Assembly: GCA_002839285.1 (NCBI GenBank)
Contig: PGXT01000041.1
Coordinates: 1-44,647 of the forward strand
DNA: 44,647 nucleotides
DNA from: Spirochaetae bacterium HGW-Spirochaetae-5
GTDB taxonomy: Bacteria; Spirochaetota; UBA4802; UBA5550
Reading direction: 5' to 3'
This document shows positions 14,525-44,531 of the stretch, in pieces. Positions within the stretch are counted from its first letter, which is position 1. Each line of letters begins with the position of its first letter. The notes under the pieces were generated by a model. The model did not search any database, had not been told where the DNA came from, and worked only from the letters and a program-made list of their open reading frames with translations. The position numbers and the translations under genes are program-made.

Positions 14525-14598
14525 CGGGGCGTGGCTCAGTCCGGTAGAGCGCGTGGTTTGGGACCATGAGATCGGAGGTTCGAATCCTCTCGCCCCGA
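14525..14598 (+). tRNA. tRNA-Pro (UGG)
   Basis: Canonical cloverleaf of 74 nt: acceptor CGGGGCG with CGCCCCG, D arm GCTC/GAGC, anticodon loop TTTGGGA with anticodon TGG, T arm GGAGG-TTCGAAT-CCTCT (one wobble pair). No CCA is encoded. Confidence 0.97.
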
Positions 14599-14640
14599 AT
14601 TGTAATTCAATTACAGTAACTGTTTCATCAACTATCAGAT

Positions 14641-14714
<74 letters not shown>

Positions 14715-14732
14715 CATGAAAATCTTTCACAT

Positions 14733-14805
14733 GGTGACCGTAGTTCAATGGTAGAGCCCTGGTTTGTGGTACCAGTCGTTGCGGGTTCGAGCCCCGTCGG
14801 TCACC
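14733..14805 (+). tRNA. tRNA-His (GUG), prophage integration locus
   Basis: The acceptor GTGACCG pairs with CGGTCAC; the extra G at 14733 opposite C 14805 is the histidine-specific G-1. The anticodon loop TTTGTGG gives GTG. The last bases overlap the stop codon of the phage integrase, which runs the other way, so the left prophage boundary lies at or very near the tRNA 3' end. Confidence 0.96.
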
Positions 14806-16375
14806 CATCATGTAACATGTCCGAACTCGCAGGAAACCCCTGCGAGTTCGCTATTTGGAGCACCCTTTCATCCAGGATAAAAGAATACGGCATTTTCCAG
14901 TCAATAACAACCTGATCATCCCAGACGTGCACAGTCTCTGCTAAAAGCCTGAGCAGGCGCCCTTTTTCAGCATAATCAGCCATACTGTAGAGCTCAAAGA
15001 CGTTTCGCACCTGACCAATAACCCTGCTTACTTCCAGTGTAAAATCAGTCCTGTTTATACGCATCTGCTGATGCTGATTCTCAATCCTCGTCAGAACCTT
15101 CTTATTCTCATCCATACGCATCCGGACAGCCTTTTCATCTACACCATCAATGAGGAGCTGGAGGAGCTTCTGCTGCTCCTTTTCAAGCCTTACAATCTCT
15201 TTCTTGACACCTTCCTGCTCTTTGGCCTGTCCTCTCTCATTAATGTCCACAGACTCCCGGAAAAGCTCTTTCAGGTGCTCCTCAAAGCTCCCTGAGAAGC
15301 GGATAAAACGCATCTTGTCATCTATGAGTTTAAATACATCCTCCTCTTTATAAGCCATGTACTGAGGCCTTCTGATAGAGTAATAAACGTATTTTTCTTT
15401 TTTAAGCTCTCCAGTAAACATGCTGCCGGAATCTCCGGATCTGAGTAACCCCTTAAGGATAAAATCATTATTCCGGATCTTTGCACCTTTATATTTCAGC
15501 TTCATCCGTGATGTTCTGCGGTTATATTGCTCATCGGTAATATAAGCCTCATGAGTCCCGTGATAGATATTCCCCTCATACTCAAACCGCCCGGTGTAAA
15601 ACACATTAGCCAGGAGCCTTAAAATAGTAGTACGGTTCCAGGCATTCCCCCTCTGAGTTTTAAAAGCCTGATTATTCAGCCATTCACAGATCCCCAGCGC
15701 GGTGTAATCCTGATTATCGTATAAATCGAAAATCTGAAGAATCAATTCCGCATCTTTATTTTTGATATATTTCCGCTGCGAAGTATCATAGTCATATCCG
15801 GGAGGAGGAGTTCCTCCGGGAGCTATCCCGTGTTTAACCTTCCAGATAGCCGTCTGTTTGCTGTCGTGACTCACCTTGTCGCTATGCCCTTCAGCAACGG
15901 CAAGTTTTATATTCATTACAAATTTTTCAGAGTGATGGCTCTTTTTGTGGATCACGGATCCTTCCTGATAAAAATGAATGTGGAAGTTATGCTCATCGAT
16001 GAGGGATTTAAGACGTGACCAGTCGTTAAAATTACGGGACATCCGGTCCGTACACATGAATACTATATCCTTGACGCCTGTCTCCAGTGCCAGGTCAAGC
16101 ATCATGTTAAAGATCTTCCTGCCGGTTTTATAAGCGGATTCTGCAGTGGTAAAGAAGTGTGCAATGTGCAGATCGGTATCAGCTGCATACTTGACGCCCT
16201 TCTCCTCCTGCTGCTGGAGAGATGTGCCCAGAACTTCCTGCTGCTTTGTAGACACGCGGTCATAAATGAATACAGGTTTCTTCCCTGTTTCATGCGCGGT
16301 TTTAATCTGCCGGACTATTTCAGCCCGGAGTTCAGTGCGGTTAAAAGTTTCCATGCAAGCAATACTACAGAGCAT
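14801..16375 (-). CDS. Large serine recombinase (phage integrase)
   Basis: The catalytic domain starts with VFIYDRVSTKQQ, where S42 is the nucleophile; LDLALETGVKDIVFMCTDRM belongs to the same fold. A recombinase domain (about 190-290, GICEWLNNQAF) and a zinc-ribbon-like segment follow, then a coiled-coil region (about 375-440, VKKEIVRLEKEQQKLLQLL) as in large serine integrases. At 524 aa it is full length. It cuts attP and attB with a two-base crossover and rejoins them without host ligase. Its final codons run into tRNA-His. No excisionase (recombination directionality factor) is recognisable nearby. Confidence 0.93.
   Translation of the reverse strand: MLCSIACMETFNRTELRAEIVRQIKTAHETGKKPVFIYDRVSTKQQEVLGTSLQQQEEKGVKYAADTDLHIAHFFTTAESAYKTGRKIFNMMLDLALETGVKDIVFMCTDRMSRNFNDWSRLKSLIDEHNFHIHFYQEGSVIHKKSHHSEKFVMNIKLAVAEGHSDKVSHDSKQTAIWKVKHGIAPGGTPPPGYDYDTSQRKYIKNKDAELILQIFDLYDNQDYTALGICEWLNNQAFKTQRGNAWNRTTILRLLANVFYTGRFEYEGNIYHGTHEAYITDEQYNRRTSRMKLKYKGAKIRNNDFILKGLLRSGDSGSMFTGELKKEKYVYYSIRRPQYMAYKEEDVFKLIDDKMRFIRFSGSFEEHLKELFRESVDINERGQAKEQEGVKKEIVRLEKEQQKLLQLLIDGVDEKAVRMRMDENKKVLTRIENQHQQMRINRTDFTLEVSRVIGQVRNVFELYSMADYAEKGRLLRLLAETVHVWDDQVVIDWKMPYSFILDERVLQIANSQGFPASSDMLHDG
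14822..14850. repeat. Perfect hairpin in the integrase 3' end, candidate attL arm
   Basis: CGAACTCGCAGG pairs with CCTGCGAGTTCG over 12 bp around AAACC. It lies inside the last codons of the integrase gene, 17 bases from the tRNA end. No T run follows on the minus strand, so it is a weak terminator candidate; a symmetric integrase binding site is an alternative. Confidence 0.6.
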
Positions 16376-34053: not shown

Positions 34054-35379
34054 TTATATCCTGTGCCTGTATCTGAGTCTTAATTTATTTATCGCATCAG
34101 CTGATGAAGATTCATTTTCGTGGTGAGGCTTGACATAGCTTACATCTGACATACTTATCCGGGGAACATTAACGCTGTTTCTCAGGTGAGTAAAGAAAGC
34201 GTATCGTATAGCGTCCATACAGTCATCATTAAGCTTAATCGGGACCTCTTTAACCGTACTCCCCTGATCCCAGATGTAAGAGTCAAACTCGCGGATTGTA
34301 TAATGACAGTTCTGTGATACAATAATCCTGCCGGCGTTTACCATCCCCTTAACAAACATAATCCCCTCAAAGACATCCTTTGTAGCGGACACCGCAGGGA
34401 GCCCGGCATTCTGCAGATCCTGAATAATCTCCGGCCTTGCACCGTCACAGTATATAGCTGAAAATCTGTATTGTTTATGCAGCTGGCTTACAGTTGAAAT
34501 AATGTCAGAAGTGGAGAGGTGACGTTTATACAGCTCATCAATAAGATAATATTTAGGATCACGAATCCCGATAATAGACATCGCTGTAGGGTGATCAAAT
34601 CCAAAGTCAAGCCCGGCAATAATTTCATCATAAGTTTCAGGGAGAGTTGACGGCTCTACTCTCTGCGACATCGGGAGCTGATATATTACACCTTCAAGAG
34701 CTCCCCATACACCTTCAACCATTCTGGAATAATATTCCGGATTGGTGATTCTTAAAGTCTCAAGGTCGGCAAGATATGAAGAGGGGAGAAAAGGATTATC
34801 CCGGCTGATAGAGTTGATTACTTTACTCCCCGGAATAGGATTCTCGAAAAAGTCTTTATACACCCAGTTTGTAAATGCTCCGGGATTAGTAGCACCAAAA
34901 AGAGAGTGATTAACATTCTTCTGTCTTAGCCTGGTACGGAGCATTTTAAAGATGTCGTGTTTTATATCTGTCATCTCCTCGATCCCGATAAAGCCGAGAT
35001 TAAGAGATTTAAATTTATTAGCATCGTCAAAAGGCCTGAAGAGAATAGAGCTGCCGTTCTTCAGAACAAAAGTGTTTGTAGATTTATTGTGAGTCTTTAT
35101 CAGTCCGGAGGGGACAAGATTCTCAAACTCTGACATTGTAGTGTCACGGAGTAAAGGCATAGTCTGCGCTCCCAGTAACCCCTTGATTCCGGGATACTCA
35201 AGACAGAGCTTAAGCGCTCTTAAAACAACAGAATAGGTCTTACCGCTCCCCACACCGCCGGAGTTAAGCAGATAACGAGCGTCTGAGTTTACAAACGCAG
35301 ACTGGTGCGGATCAATCAGTGTGAACTGGACCGTTGCCATTATCACCACCGCCAGAAGAATAATATATACCCGTTTCAT
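34054..35379 (-). CDS. Terminase large subunit, with hydrophobic N-terminal extension
   Basis: Walker A GGVGSGKTYS (about 41-50), Walker B-like LGFIGIEEM (about 128-136), and the nuclease motifs IAGLDFGFDHPTA, IYCDGARPE and DDCMDAIRYA identify the packaging motor-nuclease. The ORF from ATG 35379 has a good ribosome site (AAAGGTGAGGC) but adds 13 very hydrophobic residues (MKRVYIILLAVVI) before the natural-looking start M14 (35340). It overlaps nothing and starts 9 bases after terS. It cuts the concatemer and pumps DNA into heads. Confidence 0.92.
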   Translation of the reverse strand: MKRVYIILLAVVIMATVQFTLIDPHQSAFVNSDARYLLNSGGVGSGKTYSVVLRALKLCLEYPGIKGLLGAQTMPLLRDTTMSEFENLVPSGLIKTHNKSTNTFVLKNGSSILFRPFDDANKFKSLNLGFIGIEEMTDIKHDIFKMLRTRLRQKNVNHSLFGATNPGAFTNWVYKDFFENPIPGSKVINSISRDNPFLPSSYLADLETLRITNPEYYSRMVEGVWGALEGVIYQLPMSQRVEPSTLPETYDEIIAGLDFGFDHPTAMSIIGIRDPKYYLIDELYKRHLSTSDIISTVSQLHKQYRFSAIYCDGARPEIIQDLQNAGLPAVSATKDVFEGIMFVKGMVNAGRIIVSQNCHYTIREFDSYIWDQGSTVKEVPIKLNDDCMDAIRYAFFTHLRNSVNVPRISMSDVSYVKPHHENESSSADAINKLRLRYRHRI

Positions 35380-39452: not shown

Positions 39453-40043
39453 TTAAACTCTATGCATAAAATCAGGAATCGATTCTGCCAGCTTTAAGTA
39501 CTGTTCAGAATTTACAGCTGACAACTGAAGCAGATTTCTGCAGTGCTGCTTGTCGCCTATCATCAAGGGTGTTTTTCTTCTGGAGCTCTCGCCTATGAGA
39601 ACTTTACTTTCTCTGTCCGGAGTCTGGCGTGAATACATTACAAACCACTTGATAAACTTCTCCTGGTGAAAATGCTCCTTGTCAATATCCCGCTGGCAGA
39701 ACGCACCCCAGCCCCCCATGTCTTCAACACATGCCTGAACCCTGATGTCAGAGATTATAACATCATCAAGACTTGACCCGCTGCGGTTCAGTTTGCTCCA
39801 CCAGTCCAGAGCTTCAGCTCTGTAATCATCATCAGTCTTAACGCTTAAATTTTTAATCCTTGCGATATCAACGGGATTCTGGTTTTCTCTTCTGGGGATA
39901 GTGCTTATAAGTTTTGTATAAAGATTCTCCAGATCAGATTCAGGGAGAGAGAGAATATATTTCAACACTACCTCCTCTACAAATTTATTTTCATAGGGAC
40001 CGTAATAACGTTTTACCGCAGACATAAATTCAGCGTGTTCCAT
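39453..40043 (-). CDS. DUF6475-like replication accessory protein, 196 aa
   Basis: The pattern DWWSKLNRSGSSLDDVIISD followed by VQACVEDMGGWGAFCQRD (about 85-122) is characteristic of small phage proteins found next to O-type replication genes. The start is 40043 after AAGGAGATGCGAA; the longer frame overlaps the O-like gene. It may load the host helicase at the origin. Family recognised by pattern only. Confidence 0.7.
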   Translation of the reverse strand: MEHAEFMSAVKRYYGPYENKFVEEVVLKYILSLPESDLENLYTKLISTIPRRENQNPVDIARIKNLSVKTDDDYRAEALDWWSKLNRSGSSLDDVIISDIRVQACVEDMGGWGAFCQRDIDKEHFHQEKFIKWFVMYSRQTPDRESKVLIGESSRRKTPLMIGDKQHCRNLLQLSAVNSEQYLKLAESIPDFMHRV

Positions 40044-40797
40044 TTCGCATCTCCTTAATTTTTGCATTATAATAATCAACATCACTCTGCATCTCTTCAG
40101 CGGTGCCGGCTCTGTTTTTCGGCATTCGTTTTTCAATAACATCAAAATGCTTTCTAAGGCCTGCGGCTGACTGGATAATCTCTTTCCACTTCCAGCGATC
40201 GTATTTGAAAATGTAATCGATAACCTGATCAATAAGCGCGTAACTCACTCCGTCAATCCGGTGAAGCCGTTCAATCTCTTCAGACCATTTATTAAGGTCT
40301 GGCGGTTTACAGTTCCAGCGCGTGGGTTTTGGTATATAATCGAATAACTTTTGAGTTAAGGCTTTTGCCTCAGCCGGAGTTATTAATATTTCTTTTGTAG
40401 TAGTTTCTTTAACTATTTCTTTTGTGGGTGTACTTTCTACACCAGTTAGAGGCTCAACTGGTGTACTTTCTACACCACTCTGGTGTACTTTCTTCACCAG
40501 TGTATTTTCTTCACTGGTGTAGTTAAGTGTATAGTCAGAGGTTTTTCCGACCACTTTATCGACCTTAATAAGACCGATTTTGTCCAATTCGTTGACCGCT
40601 TTTATGACCTGTTTTTTAGATAATCCGGATAAATTTTGCATCTGAGAGAGTGATATGGAGTCGGTTTCTTTGTGCCACCCGGTAGTTTTTCGGGAGATAA
40701 TTATAAATATTTTTACTGCCGCACCGCTTAAAAGATGCATGTGATCTTCGATAAATTCGTTGCTGATTTTAGTATGATTATCTTTTTTAAGAGCCAT
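40030..40797 (-). CDS. Replication initiator of the phage O type, 255 aa
   Basis: Residues 8-95 form the Phage_rep_O_N winged-helix domain: FIEDHMHLLSGAAVKIFIII, then SLSQMQNLSGLSKKQVIKAV. The middle of the gene holds tandem iterons at the DNA level (see 40427-40515), encoding the repeated GVESTP. The C-terminus is charged. As in lambda, the O protein would bind its own coding region to start replication. It overlaps the accessory protein gene by 14 bases. Confidence 0.8.
   Translation of the reverse strand: MALKKDNHTKISNEFIEDHMHLLSGAAVKIFIIISRKTTGWHKETDSISLSQMQNLSGLSKKQVIKAVNELDKIGLIKVDKVVGKTSDYTLNYTSEENTLVKKVHQSGVESTPVEPLTGVESTPTKEIVKETTTKEILITPAEAKALTQKLFDYIPKPTRWNCKPPDLNKWSEEIERLHRIDGVSYALIDQVIDYIFKYDRWKWKEIIQSAAGLRKHFDVIEKRMPKNRAGTAEEMQSDVDYYNAKIKEMRNGTR
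40427..40515. repeat. Iterons inside the O-like gene: candidate phage origin
   Basis: Four 17-base units start at 40427, 40460, 40482 and 40499: GGTGTACTTTCTACACC twice, then GGTGTACTTTCTTCACC and the more diverged AGTGTATTTTCTTCACT. Each is an imperfect palindrome (GGTGTA...TACACC). An AT-rich stretch of about 45 bases (40381-40425) lies directly beside them. Iterons plus AT-rich DNA within the initiator gene is the lambda-type origin layout. Confidence 0.7.
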
Positions 40798-41312: not shown

Positions 41313-41456
41313 TCACGCCTTAACCAGTTCAGCTTTCCCGTTACATCCGGGATCTGCACATGGCTTGTTAACGTAAAAAACCATATACGGCTTGCGGCGG
41401 TTGCCATTTTCGGGTTTAACTTCCTTACCGCAAATCGAGCATTTAAAAACTGTCAT
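41313..41456 (-). CDS. Small zinc-finger protein, 47 aa
   Basis: MTVFKCSICGKEVKPENGNR followed by KPCADPGCNGKAEL: the two cysteine pairs (CSIC and CADPGC) form a treble-clef-like zinc site. ATG 41456 overlaps the upstream stop as ATGA, so it is coupled. It ends before a strong hairpin. Too short for the usual cut-off. Confidence 0.65.
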   Translation of the reverse strand: MTVFKCSICGKEVKPENGNRRKPYMVFYVNKPCADPGCNGKAELVKA

Positions 41457-41656
41457 AACTCCGATGCTCCTGTCCCATCTTTCTCCAGGGCTTTATCGAT
41501 ATTATGCAAAGGCTGATAAAGCCCTGCTATATGCTGCAGAGCTCTGTTGATCTCGACCTGAGACTCTTTACCGCAATTATCACGGAGAGCCTTTAATCTG
41601 CCTTCAATCTTCCCCAGATCGTTTATACAGAGAGATACCGCTTCATAGTTTGTCAT
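41453..41656 (-). CDS. Hypothetical helical protein, 67 aa
   Basis: Starts MTNYEAVSLCINDLGKIEGR after GGAGGACACT; the frame to 41668 adds four residues without a site. Mostly amphipathic helix. The ribosome site lies only four bases after the 3' end of the tRNA-like element at 41671, so tRNA-like processing could affect this gene's 5' end. Confidence 0.65.
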   Translation of the reverse strand: MTNYEAVSLCINDLGKIEGRLKALRDNCGKESQVEINRALQHIAGLYQPLHNIDKALEKDGTGASEL

Positions 41657-41670
41657 AGTGTCCTCCATTT

Positions 41671-41732
41671 GCTCCCTCCCGGAATCGAACCGTTACTGGG
41701 GTTTATTAGCCAGCCGACCAATCGCAGAGAGC
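41671..41732 (-). ncRNA. tRNA-like element 4
   Basis: GCTCTCT pairs with AGGGAGC (7 bp, one G-U) as an acceptor; GGTTCGATTCC gives a T loop with a short stem (CGG/CCG). Between them GATTGGTC keeps the D-loop GG, and CTGG-...-CCAG resembles a broken anticodon stem (GGCTAATAAACC). There is no regular D stem. At 62 nt it is much shorter than a true tRNA of 74 nt. It ends 15 bases before the ATG of the next gene. Confidence 0.6.
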
Positions 41733-41794
41733 CCTTAAACAAATTCAAATAAAACCTGCATTCATTATCCAGTCTGCCGGGACTGGCACCGATT

Positions 41795-41852
41795 TGTCAG
41801 AGGCTGGATTCGAACCAGCATTCCAATTAGACAGCCTACCACACCCTCAGTC
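41795..41852 (-). ncRNA. tRNA-like element 3, possibly interrupted
   Basis: A perfect T arm GCTGG-TTCGAAT-CCAGC is followed by CTCTGACA. The nearest 5' partner GACTGAGG pairs only in part (5 of 7). A perfect eight-base partner, TGTCAGAG, lies at 41991-41998, about 190 nt upstream, which would make an interrupted unit of 204 nt. GTGTGGTAGG keeps D-loop-like bases, but the D stem is missing. Confidence 0.5.
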
Positions 41853-42086
41853 GGCTTTAGCCTGGAGTCATAGAGAGAGGGTCTTTCGGTCTCTACCGCG
41901 TCTACATCGCAAAACCAATAGTAGGGTTTATCCAATAAACAACTCTGAACAAGCTCACAGGTCTTTTCAGAATCCGATGTTTTTGCGCCACTCTGACATA
42001 TTGCCGTCTTTCCGGCTGTCACCCTTCTTCCAGCTCCTCAGTGTTAGTTCTGTAAGAGTAGAGCAGATATGCTATAAAAGCCATTC

Positions 42087-42147
42087 GCTGACAAAGGACT
42101 CGAACCTTTATCTGAGGACTGGAGGCCACAGATACACCTGTTTCAGC
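42087..42147 (-). ncRNA. tRNA-like element 2
   Basis: GCTGAAA pairs with TGTCAGC (one mismatch), the T arm is AAAGG-TTCGAGT-CCTTT, and TCTGTGG/CCTCAGA (one mismatch) forms an anticodon-like stem around a loop holding CTCCAG. In place of the D arm is only ACAGGTGT. Total 61 nt. The hairpin repeat GCCGG-GAAGAGA-CCGGC lies directly upstream. Confidence 0.6.
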
Positions 42148-42380
42148 GGTTGCCGGTCTCTTCCCGGCTGTCAGAATGAATTTCACGGTATTGGCTGGCA
42201 TTCCGCCAATGGTTTCGCACCGTTTCGGCACCGTTCCCCTACATCGGATACTGTTCATCCGGTAAGTCATCAGGTTTAAATACGGCGTCCGCAGAAGCTG
42301 ATTGCATATGCGACTATACCCAATCAGCAGCCTTTCCGTAACCCTTTCCGCTTAAGCCTGAAAGCGGTGGGATTTTCTTC

Positions 42381-42441
42381 GCAGGAGAGGGACTCGAACC
42401 CTCATCTCAGGCAGAAGTCCTGAGTGTACCTTTACTCCTGC
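42381..42441 (-). ncRNA. tRNA-like element 1
   Basis: GCAGGAG pairs perfectly with CTCCTGC, the T arm is GAGGG-TTCGAGT-CCCTC, and CTCAGG-ACTTCTG-CCTGAG is a perfect six-base stem with a seven-base loop. Between acceptor and anticodon stem there are only ten bases, TAAAGGTACA, able to form a GTA-AAGG-TAC mini-stem. No CCA is encoded. The best folded of the four elements. Confidence 0.65.
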
Positions 42442-42442
42442 T

Positions 42443-42466
42443 AAAAAGCCCGGACATTGCATCCGG
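42443..42466 (-). terminator. Probable terminator before the tRNA-like locus
   Basis: CCGGA-TGCAATG-TCCGG followed on the minus strand by GCTTTTTA. It ends the 42526-42873 gene's transcript just before element 1. The hairpin CTGCC...GGCAG (42471-42493), whose loop contains TTGGTA, stands right before it. The pair also resembles a D arm and an anticodon arm. Confidence 0.5.
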
Positions 42467-42525
42467 TAATCTGCCGGTTACCAATTAAGGCAGAGGAGGT
42501 ATATGAAAAAAGTTTAGATAAATAT

Positions 42526-42873
42526 CTACTTCACGCGAACAGGCTTACTCATCTCAGGGAAAATTCCCTGAATGCCTTCCTGCTCATATGCCACAAGCTC
42601 TCCATCTTCGATCTTTGCGTACATGGTGTTTATAACGCTAAGCGGAGGAACGAGTTTCTTCTTAAGCTTCACTTCGTAAGCGATCTTTGCTGCATCCTGT
42701 TTATCCGGGATCATCCTTAACACCAGGTGAATCTCACGGGCTTTTGTCTGGTCCGTATTCTCATCAAGAATATTCGCATAAGCTTCAGCCAGAGCAGAAT
42801 CAAACATCTCCACCGCCGCACCGTCAGAGAGAGTCTTTAAACTGACAAGATGCAATCCGCTGTTTGGACTCAT
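42526..42873 (-). CDS. Hypothetical early phage protein, 115 aa
   Basis: Mixed alpha/beta protein (LAEAYANILDENTDQTKARE, about 29-48) with no recognised motif. Its ATG overlaps the upstream stop as ATGA. It is the last protein gene before the structured RNA locus. Confidence 0.65.
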   Translation of the reverse strand: MSPNSGLHLVSLKTLSDGAAVEMFDSALAEAYANILDENTDQTKAREIHLVLRMIPDKQDAAKIAYEVKLKKKLVPPLSVINTMYAKIEDGELVAYEQEGIQGIFPEMSKPVRVK

Positions 42874-44015: not shown

Positions 44016-44531
44016 ATGTATATAGGTGAAAAGCTTAAACAACTAAGAAGATATTACGGGTATAGTCAAAGTGACCTCTCAAAAAGATTGGACGTCCCTC
44101 AGACCAGTATATCTAACTACGAGCAACAAAATGAAGCAACTGGCATGCTTGAATATATTTATAAATTATGTACATTTTTAAAAATTCCAGTAGCTGAATT
44201 TTTTGTTGATGATGTTAAAGATTTTGGTAATAATCTACCGAGCTATATTACACCTGCTGATGCGGCTACCCTGAAAGTGCTCAATACCGCTATAGATATT
44301 AAAACACGAATAGAAATCAAAACTGCATTTGTTCATATTATGAAGGCGTTGATTTCCAGACCTTTATCCGAAATGATACAATTACCTGAAATACAAGAGC
44401 TTATAGATAAGGAGGAGGAAAAATTAAAAAATGAACCGCCTTCCCTTGAATTTCAAAAGTTTATTGATGAAGAGAAGAGGGAATTAGAAGCGATGATTTC
44501 CAAGAAAAAAGAAGATGTGAAAAAGGATTGA
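44016..44531 (+). CDS. XRE-family phage repressor, 171 aa
   Basis: The N-terminal helix-turn-helix (LRRYYGYSQSDLSKRLDVPQ, about 9-28, then TSISNYEQ) is typical of Xre/CI repressors. There is no LexA-like peptidase domain; the C-terminus is a long charged helix (about 120-171). So induction by RecA-driven self-cleavage is unlikely and another signal would be needed. It is the only plus-strand phage gene and faces the early operon. No strong ribosome site is seen before the ATG. Confidence 0.85.
   Translation: MYIGEKLKQLRRYYGYSQSDLSKRLDVPQTSISNYEQQNEATGMLEYIYKLCTFLKIPVAEFFVDDVKDFGNNLPSYITPADAATLKVLNTAIDIKTRIEIKTAFVHIMKALISRPLSEMIQLPEIQELIDKEEEKLKNEPPSLEFQKFIDEEKRELEAMISKKKEDVKKD

Follow-up and report, generated by a model that had tools for sequence, protein, structure and literature searches.

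A gap between two genes of a spirochaetal prophage contains four short tRNA-like elements, which raises the question of what kind of RNA they belong to and what a phage might use it for. The elements lie in a 44,647-nt stretch of DNA from Spirochaetae bacterium HGW-Spirochaetae-5 that was analysed in full (the window), where the prophage occupies bases 14801 to at least 43906 of one contig (G000:C41) and is read from the minus strand throughout. Its minus-strand landmarks are a serine-type integrase (14801-16375; phrog_95), a terminase (34054-35379) and an O-like replication initiator (40030-40797), and a divergent repressor is located at 44016-44531. The gap (41669-42525, minus strand, 857 nt) is situated in the early part of the prophage. 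Upstream it adjoins ORF115 (42526-42873, minus strand), which belongs to the phage 'replication terminator' family (phrog_997, E 1.4e-14), and downstream an ORF (41453-41668, minus strand) listed with 71 aa, which probably starts at 41656 and matched no known family. The Shine-Dalgarno sequence GGAGGA and the ATG at 41656 (41654-41666, minus strand) serve this downstream ORF, and only 4 nt separate the end of element 4 from the Shine-Dalgarno sequence.

Anatomy of the gap

The 857-nt gap is non-coding and structured. Its ORFs on both strands gave no PHROG or Pfam match, and no homologue is protein-coding. As a single RNA, it folds better than its shuffles (z -3.0, with 0 of 20 shuffles as good). 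The T loop GGTTCGANTCC occurs four times on the minus strand within 0.8 kb (42390-42400, 42096-42106, 41806-41816, and 41681-41691), each time exactly as an earlier note on this DNA had reported, and far above the chance expectation of about 0.0004 in 771 nt on one strand (Poisson P ~2e-15). The only further exact copy in the window belongs to a host tRNA-Pro. The T stem described for every copy is complete in elements 1-3 (5/5 pairs) and reduced to 3/5 pairs in element 4.

Element 1 (42380-42441, minus strand, 62 nt) has a 6-bp acceptor, a 6-bp anticodon stem, and a 5-bp T arm. When the T stem is allotted five pairs, the acceptor consists of 6 bp and an A.G end mismatch, not the perfect strand first drawn, and the acceptor-T helix measures 11 bp instead of 12. 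A mini-D hairpin, GUA-AAGG-UAC, is present, the anticodon loop ACUUCUG carries C33 and U37, and the fold exceeds shuffles with z -2.6. Directly 5' of this element, a terminator-like hairpin, CCGGA-TGCAATG-TCCGG followed by GCTTTTT (42444-42466, minus strand), may attenuate or protect the array transcript.

Element 2 (42086-42148, minus strand) combines an acceptor of 6/7 pairs and a 5-bp T arm with an anticodon-like stem of 5 bp, extended by 2 bp past a U.U, and a loop of 8 nt; it forms no D stem, and its folding signal is weak (z -1.6). The hairpin GCCGG-GAAGAGA-CCGGC, noted earlier among the spacers, is located directly 5' of it (42152-42168, minus strand), and a second copy, GCCG-GAAAGA-CGGC (42003-42016, minus strand), stands directly 5' of element 3.

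Element 3 is larger than had been proposed. The near acceptor partner pairs at only 5/7 positions and was wrongly chosen, whereas a perfect partner, GTCAGAG, lies at 41997 (0 in 200 shuffles), which gives an element of 202 nt (41796-41997, minus strand) with a perfect 7-bp acceptor (GTCAGAG/CTCTGAC) and a 5-bp T arm. A 170-nt middle replaces the D and anticodon arms, and the minimum free energy fold retains the acceptor and the T arm. The insert did not match the group I intron model (RF00028). The same style of search finds such an intron in Agrobacterium phage Atu_ph07 (L077:1501-1803), following an unannotated tRNA-Leu start (48.9 bits, E 1.5e-11, slightly below the cut-off of 50).

Element 4 (41671-41732, minus strand) has a 7-bp acceptor with one G-U, a 3-bp T stem, and an anticodon-like stem of 4 bp with a 10-nt loop, and is able to form a mini-D hairpin, CGA-UUGG-UCG. 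Folded alone, it is no better than its shuffles (z -0.4), and its minimum free energy structure differs from the cloverleaf. The statement that D stems are lacking thus holds for element 2 only; elements 1 and 4 can each form a 3-bp mini-hairpin with GG in its loop.

Taken together, the domains keep the top half of a tRNA, while the D arm is reduced or missing and the anticodon loop is unusable. An acceptor helix joined to a T arm with a canonical T loop is found in elements 1, 2, and 3, and in element 4 with the 3-bp T stem only. A 7-nt anticodon loop with U33 is present in no element; hence, judged by these loops, decoding is unlikely, and the suggestion of nuclease-resistant tRNAs that still decode finds no support. 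The host tRNAs at 14525-14806 are canonical, as had been claimed, and CCA is encoded neither by them nor by the elements. ARAGORN detected 0/4 elements as tRNA and no tmRNA. With relaxed thresholds, the Rfam models for tRNA, tmRNA, GOLLD, ROOL, and introns gave nothing above cut-off in the array: element 1 scored 22.5 bits against RF00005 (cut-off 29), and elements 2-4 had no match.

Decoys or sponges for host toxins that attack tRNAs, or for tRNA-binding enzymes, would suit the multiple copies with a retained top half, and phages carry tRNAs against anticodon nucleases. However, without usable anticodon loops, decoys for anticodon nucleases are unlikely, and we give the explanation as a whole a low probability. 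Remnants of tRNA genes left at an attachment site are a further candidate. The serine integrase frame terminates inside the 3' end of the host tRNA-His (14734-14806), a position which suggests that this gene is the attachment site of the prophage. Nevertheless, the four 3' ends differ and none resembles tRNA-His, each element has its own 5' partner, ~27 kb separate the locus from the integrase, and the host genome contains no other match to it; the attachment-site explanation was rejected on these grounds, its probability being close to nil.

Related prophages and the module after element 1

ORF115 homologues were found in four related genomes (G012, G016, G033, and G036). As single queries against viral contigs, ORF115 and the replication protein each returned no relatives, whereas an ORF115 alignment used as the query returned 34. 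A blastn search of the array locus against phages and plasmids gave no match. The most informative relative is G016, a genome of the same family with a terminase 80% identical (98 related genomes searched). Its ORF115 homologue (37%) is located on contig C278, not on the terminase contig, and is followed by a similar non-coding gap with the same leader as the window (AACCGGCA..., a hairpin, and CTTTTTAGCAG), including a counterpart of the terminator-like hairpin (TCCGGAAG..CTTCCGGACTTTTTAGCAG). After the leader come a tRNA-Met(CAT), 37 masked bases, and a 63-nt element in place of element 4. In G033, the next ORF directly follows the ORF115 homologue and there is no array, which implies that the array is dispensable.

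The minimum free energy fold of the 63-nt element is a four-arm mini cloverleaf. When the folds of this element and element 4 are compared, both sides change in the D stem (C-G to A-U), in the anticodon stem (U-A to C-G), and in the T stem (C-G to U-A), a result of a single pairwise comparison with one syntenic homologue. At least element 4 has therefore been preserved, as the compensatory changes in the G016 prophage show, and the earlier note's proposal of a family of minimal tRNA mimics, for which it had named such changes as a check, gains support from this homologue.

The G016 tRNA-Met has an anticodon stem, UCAGG/CCUGA, that is also the anticodon stem of element 1, and the two align; element 1 looks like a relative of this tRNA-Met from which the D stem and the anticodon have disappeared. 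The acceptor and T stems of element 1 are still paired, with letters other than those of the tRNA-Met. Since the tRNA-Met itself has mismatches at two acceptor pairs and at one T-stem pair, either form could be ancestral. A decaying array, with formerly functional phage tRNAs on the way to loss and the elements as pseudogenes, would account for a decoding-competent tRNA being the counterpart of element 1 in position and anticodon stem, and for the mixture of canonical and odd tRNAs in other phage arrays (L074, L076). However, decay should hardly leave the acceptor and T stems near perfect in elements 1-3 while the D arm and anticodon are gone; the compensatory changes in the element 4 pair argue against it, and arm-less elements elsewhere in phages are conserved with covariation. 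We regard decay as unlikely.

Element 1 is followed by a further conserved feature, module M (42273-42376, minus strand), which reads AAAATCCCACCGC-hairpin-GCGGAAAGGGT-stem-..-GGACG-stem-TTTAAACC. The module is situated directly 3' of a real tRNA-Tyr in the G012 prophage (L002, also L012) and directly 3' of a tRNA-Asn in a 329-kb phage (L005/L074). The stem after GGGT is paired in all three despite different letters (UACGG/CCGUA, GCGG/CCGC, and UUGCG/CGCAA). Among 393 genomes of the phylum, a pattern search returned only the window and G012, and convincing copies are limited to the window, the L002/L012 phage, and the 329-kb phage. Single-sequence folds of the module are no better than shuffles, and MAFFT alignments misplace one of its stems in L074. 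Matches to the module patterns at L003, L008, and L061-L068 and in bacteria were attributed to chance, and L011 was rejected as the end of a tRNA-Leu with a tRNA-Leu-like D arm. Module M links the window locus to phage tRNA arrays.

A single large ornate RNA, with the tRNA-like hairpins as internal domains, is suggested by the length and folding of the 857-nt gap and by a module that is common to loci beside tRNAs in other phages. GOLLD and ROOL are likewise large structured phage RNAs adjoining tRNAs; they occur near phage tRNA islands, and the GOLLD linker may carry tRNAs (PMC12286853). However, their Rfam models did not match the gap even at E 10, and the G016 locus is shorter with different linkers. 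This architecture is quite unlikely, a little more so than decay.

Arm-less tRNA-like elements in other phages

A scanner for T arms of 5/5 pairs joined to acceptors of at least 6 Watson-Crick pairs, with its output checked against ARAGORN, found 11 canonical tRNAs and 1 other element in 337 kb of bacterial loci, whereas 386 kb of viral loci yielded 1 canonical tRNA and 6 other elements, of which 5 are distinct; shuffled sequence gave none. Phage DNA is accordingly richer in top-half elements that escape ARAGORN: viral loci have 5 distinct ones for 1 canonical tRNA, and bacterial loci 1 for 11 (Fisher P 0.004).

Among them is a 54-nt element that lacks the D arm (L100:6917-6970; L133-L141; z -3.6) and is conserved in about 40 Lacticaseibacillus phages (more than 40 records), e.g., A2, phiAT3, J-1, and Lc-Nu, where it bears no RNA annotation. 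In 8/9 fetched records, it is located 90-160 nt downstream of an ORF in the position of the ArpU-type activator gene. Another element, of 60 nt, has D and T arms without an anticodon arm and occurs in at least 120 viral contigs (L142, L143, L144, L125:7924-7984, and L148-L227), as well as in Lactobacillus phages Sha1 and phiJL-1, again without RNA annotation. Of 80 copies that were read, 79 are complete, each exactly 60 nt long. Across 25 variants, both partners differ in 6 pairs, and each of the five covariation measures is higher than in 500/500 shuffles. Neither element is homologous to the window array. Phages thus keep tRNA-like RNAs that lack an arm.

Several further forms were observed. 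At L003:13075-13187 and in L007, canonical acceptor, D, and T arms enclose a structured insert of ~60 nt that replaces the anticodon arm. The phage tRNA arrays at L076:1133-1176 and L073:1249-1461 contain a 43-nt bare acceptor-T minihelix, a short element of 59 nt, and a tRNA whose anticodon region is expanded. A tRNA-Leu-like element with a large insert (L100:7040-7192) is located in the same Lacticaseibacillus prophage array as the 54-nt element.

Such elements in other phages point to frequent retention of cut-down tRNA mimics by viruses for uses other than translation. In its widest form, the proposal is that phages of many groups keep largely unannotated top-half tRNA-like RNAs, with the D or anticodon arm absent or replaced, the window array and the 54-nt and 60-nt elements included, and that their role is non-translational, most likely in RNA processing, stability, or the binding of host tRNA enzymes; we hold this tentatively, at somewhat below an even chance. 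If it is true, some members of the phage 'tRNA' repertoire do other work, for example the shaping of transcripts via RNase P and RNase Z or the engagement of host tRNA enzymes and tRNA-targeting defences. Finders built on the full cloverleaf miss such elements, as ARAGORN did in the window, and the Lacticaseibacillus phages offer a tractable laboratory system for the question.

Proposed processing and comparison with known systems

For the window locus, the preferred reading, to which we assign a probability of about 0.5, is a non-coding RNA in the leftward operon of the prophage, with four tRNA-like domains amid structured linkers from which RNase P and RNase Z of the host would excise small tRNA-like RNAs. 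In the lytic transcript, a tRNA elbow would form between the T loop and the GG in the mini-D loop. RNase P would then cut on the 5' side and RNase Z on the 3' side, and CCA would be added. Cleavage would release small stable tRNA-like RNAs and split the adjoining mRNA, and a cut at element 4 would also set the 5' end of the mRNA of the next gene. The released RNAs would most likely bind readers of the tRNA top half, putatively EF-Tu, tRNA-modifying enzymes, or tRNA-attacking defence toxins.

The anatomy is consistent with such a precursor, given the top half, the GG in the reduced D loop, and the lack of an encoded CCA. Recognition by RNase P and by RNase Z is directed at the elbow made by bases of the D and T loops (PMC4810234), and the mini-D loops AAGG and UUGG fit both this recognition and the anatomy of mascRNA; the absence of an encoded CCA from the host tRNAs as well as from the elements agrees with the RNase Z route. 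By analogy with mascRNA, processing by these two enzymes is probable. The 11-bp acceptor-T helix of element 1 and the 3-pair T stem of element 4 may weaken recognition by one or the other.

Compared with tRNA (RF00005), the elements share the acceptor, the T arm, and an anticodon-like stem, but they have no normal D arm and no usable anticodon. The comparison with tmRNA drawn in the earlier note applies to the top half and no further, and the tmRNA model (RF00023) had no match here at cut-off or at E 10. In Bacillus cereus, the pseudo-tRNA tRNAOther is, by its description, a bacterial tRNA-like gene without a role in translation; it adjoins a genomic island and is not an array, and the likeness is drawn from that description (PMC3399842). 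A review of non-canonical tRNAs leaves phages unmentioned, and a search of the open-access literature turned up no account of phage tRNA mimics that lack an arm.

Closer parallels come from two other sources. T4 rnaC and rnaD (species 1 and 2) are, like the array, phage-encoded non-tRNA RNAs in a tRNA cluster, and rnaC has a full T arm, CCGGG-TTCGAAT-CCCGG. In contrast, they are 139 and 119 nt long, occur once each, and have no sequence in common with the array, whose four elements measure 62-202 nt and belong to a temperate phage. Meanwhile, mascRNA/menRNA (RF01684) is a tRNA mimic of ~60 nt whose D arm is reduced and has two conserved G, and mascRNA is cut by both RNase P and RNase Z and is not aminoacylated (PMC11693755). 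Element 1 scores 17.1 bits against this model (cut-off 42.5), and mascRNA and menRNA, unlike the array, derive from the 3' ends of mammalian lncRNAs. The nearest known phage RNAs are T4 rnaC and rnaD, and the nearest anatomy is that of mascRNA.
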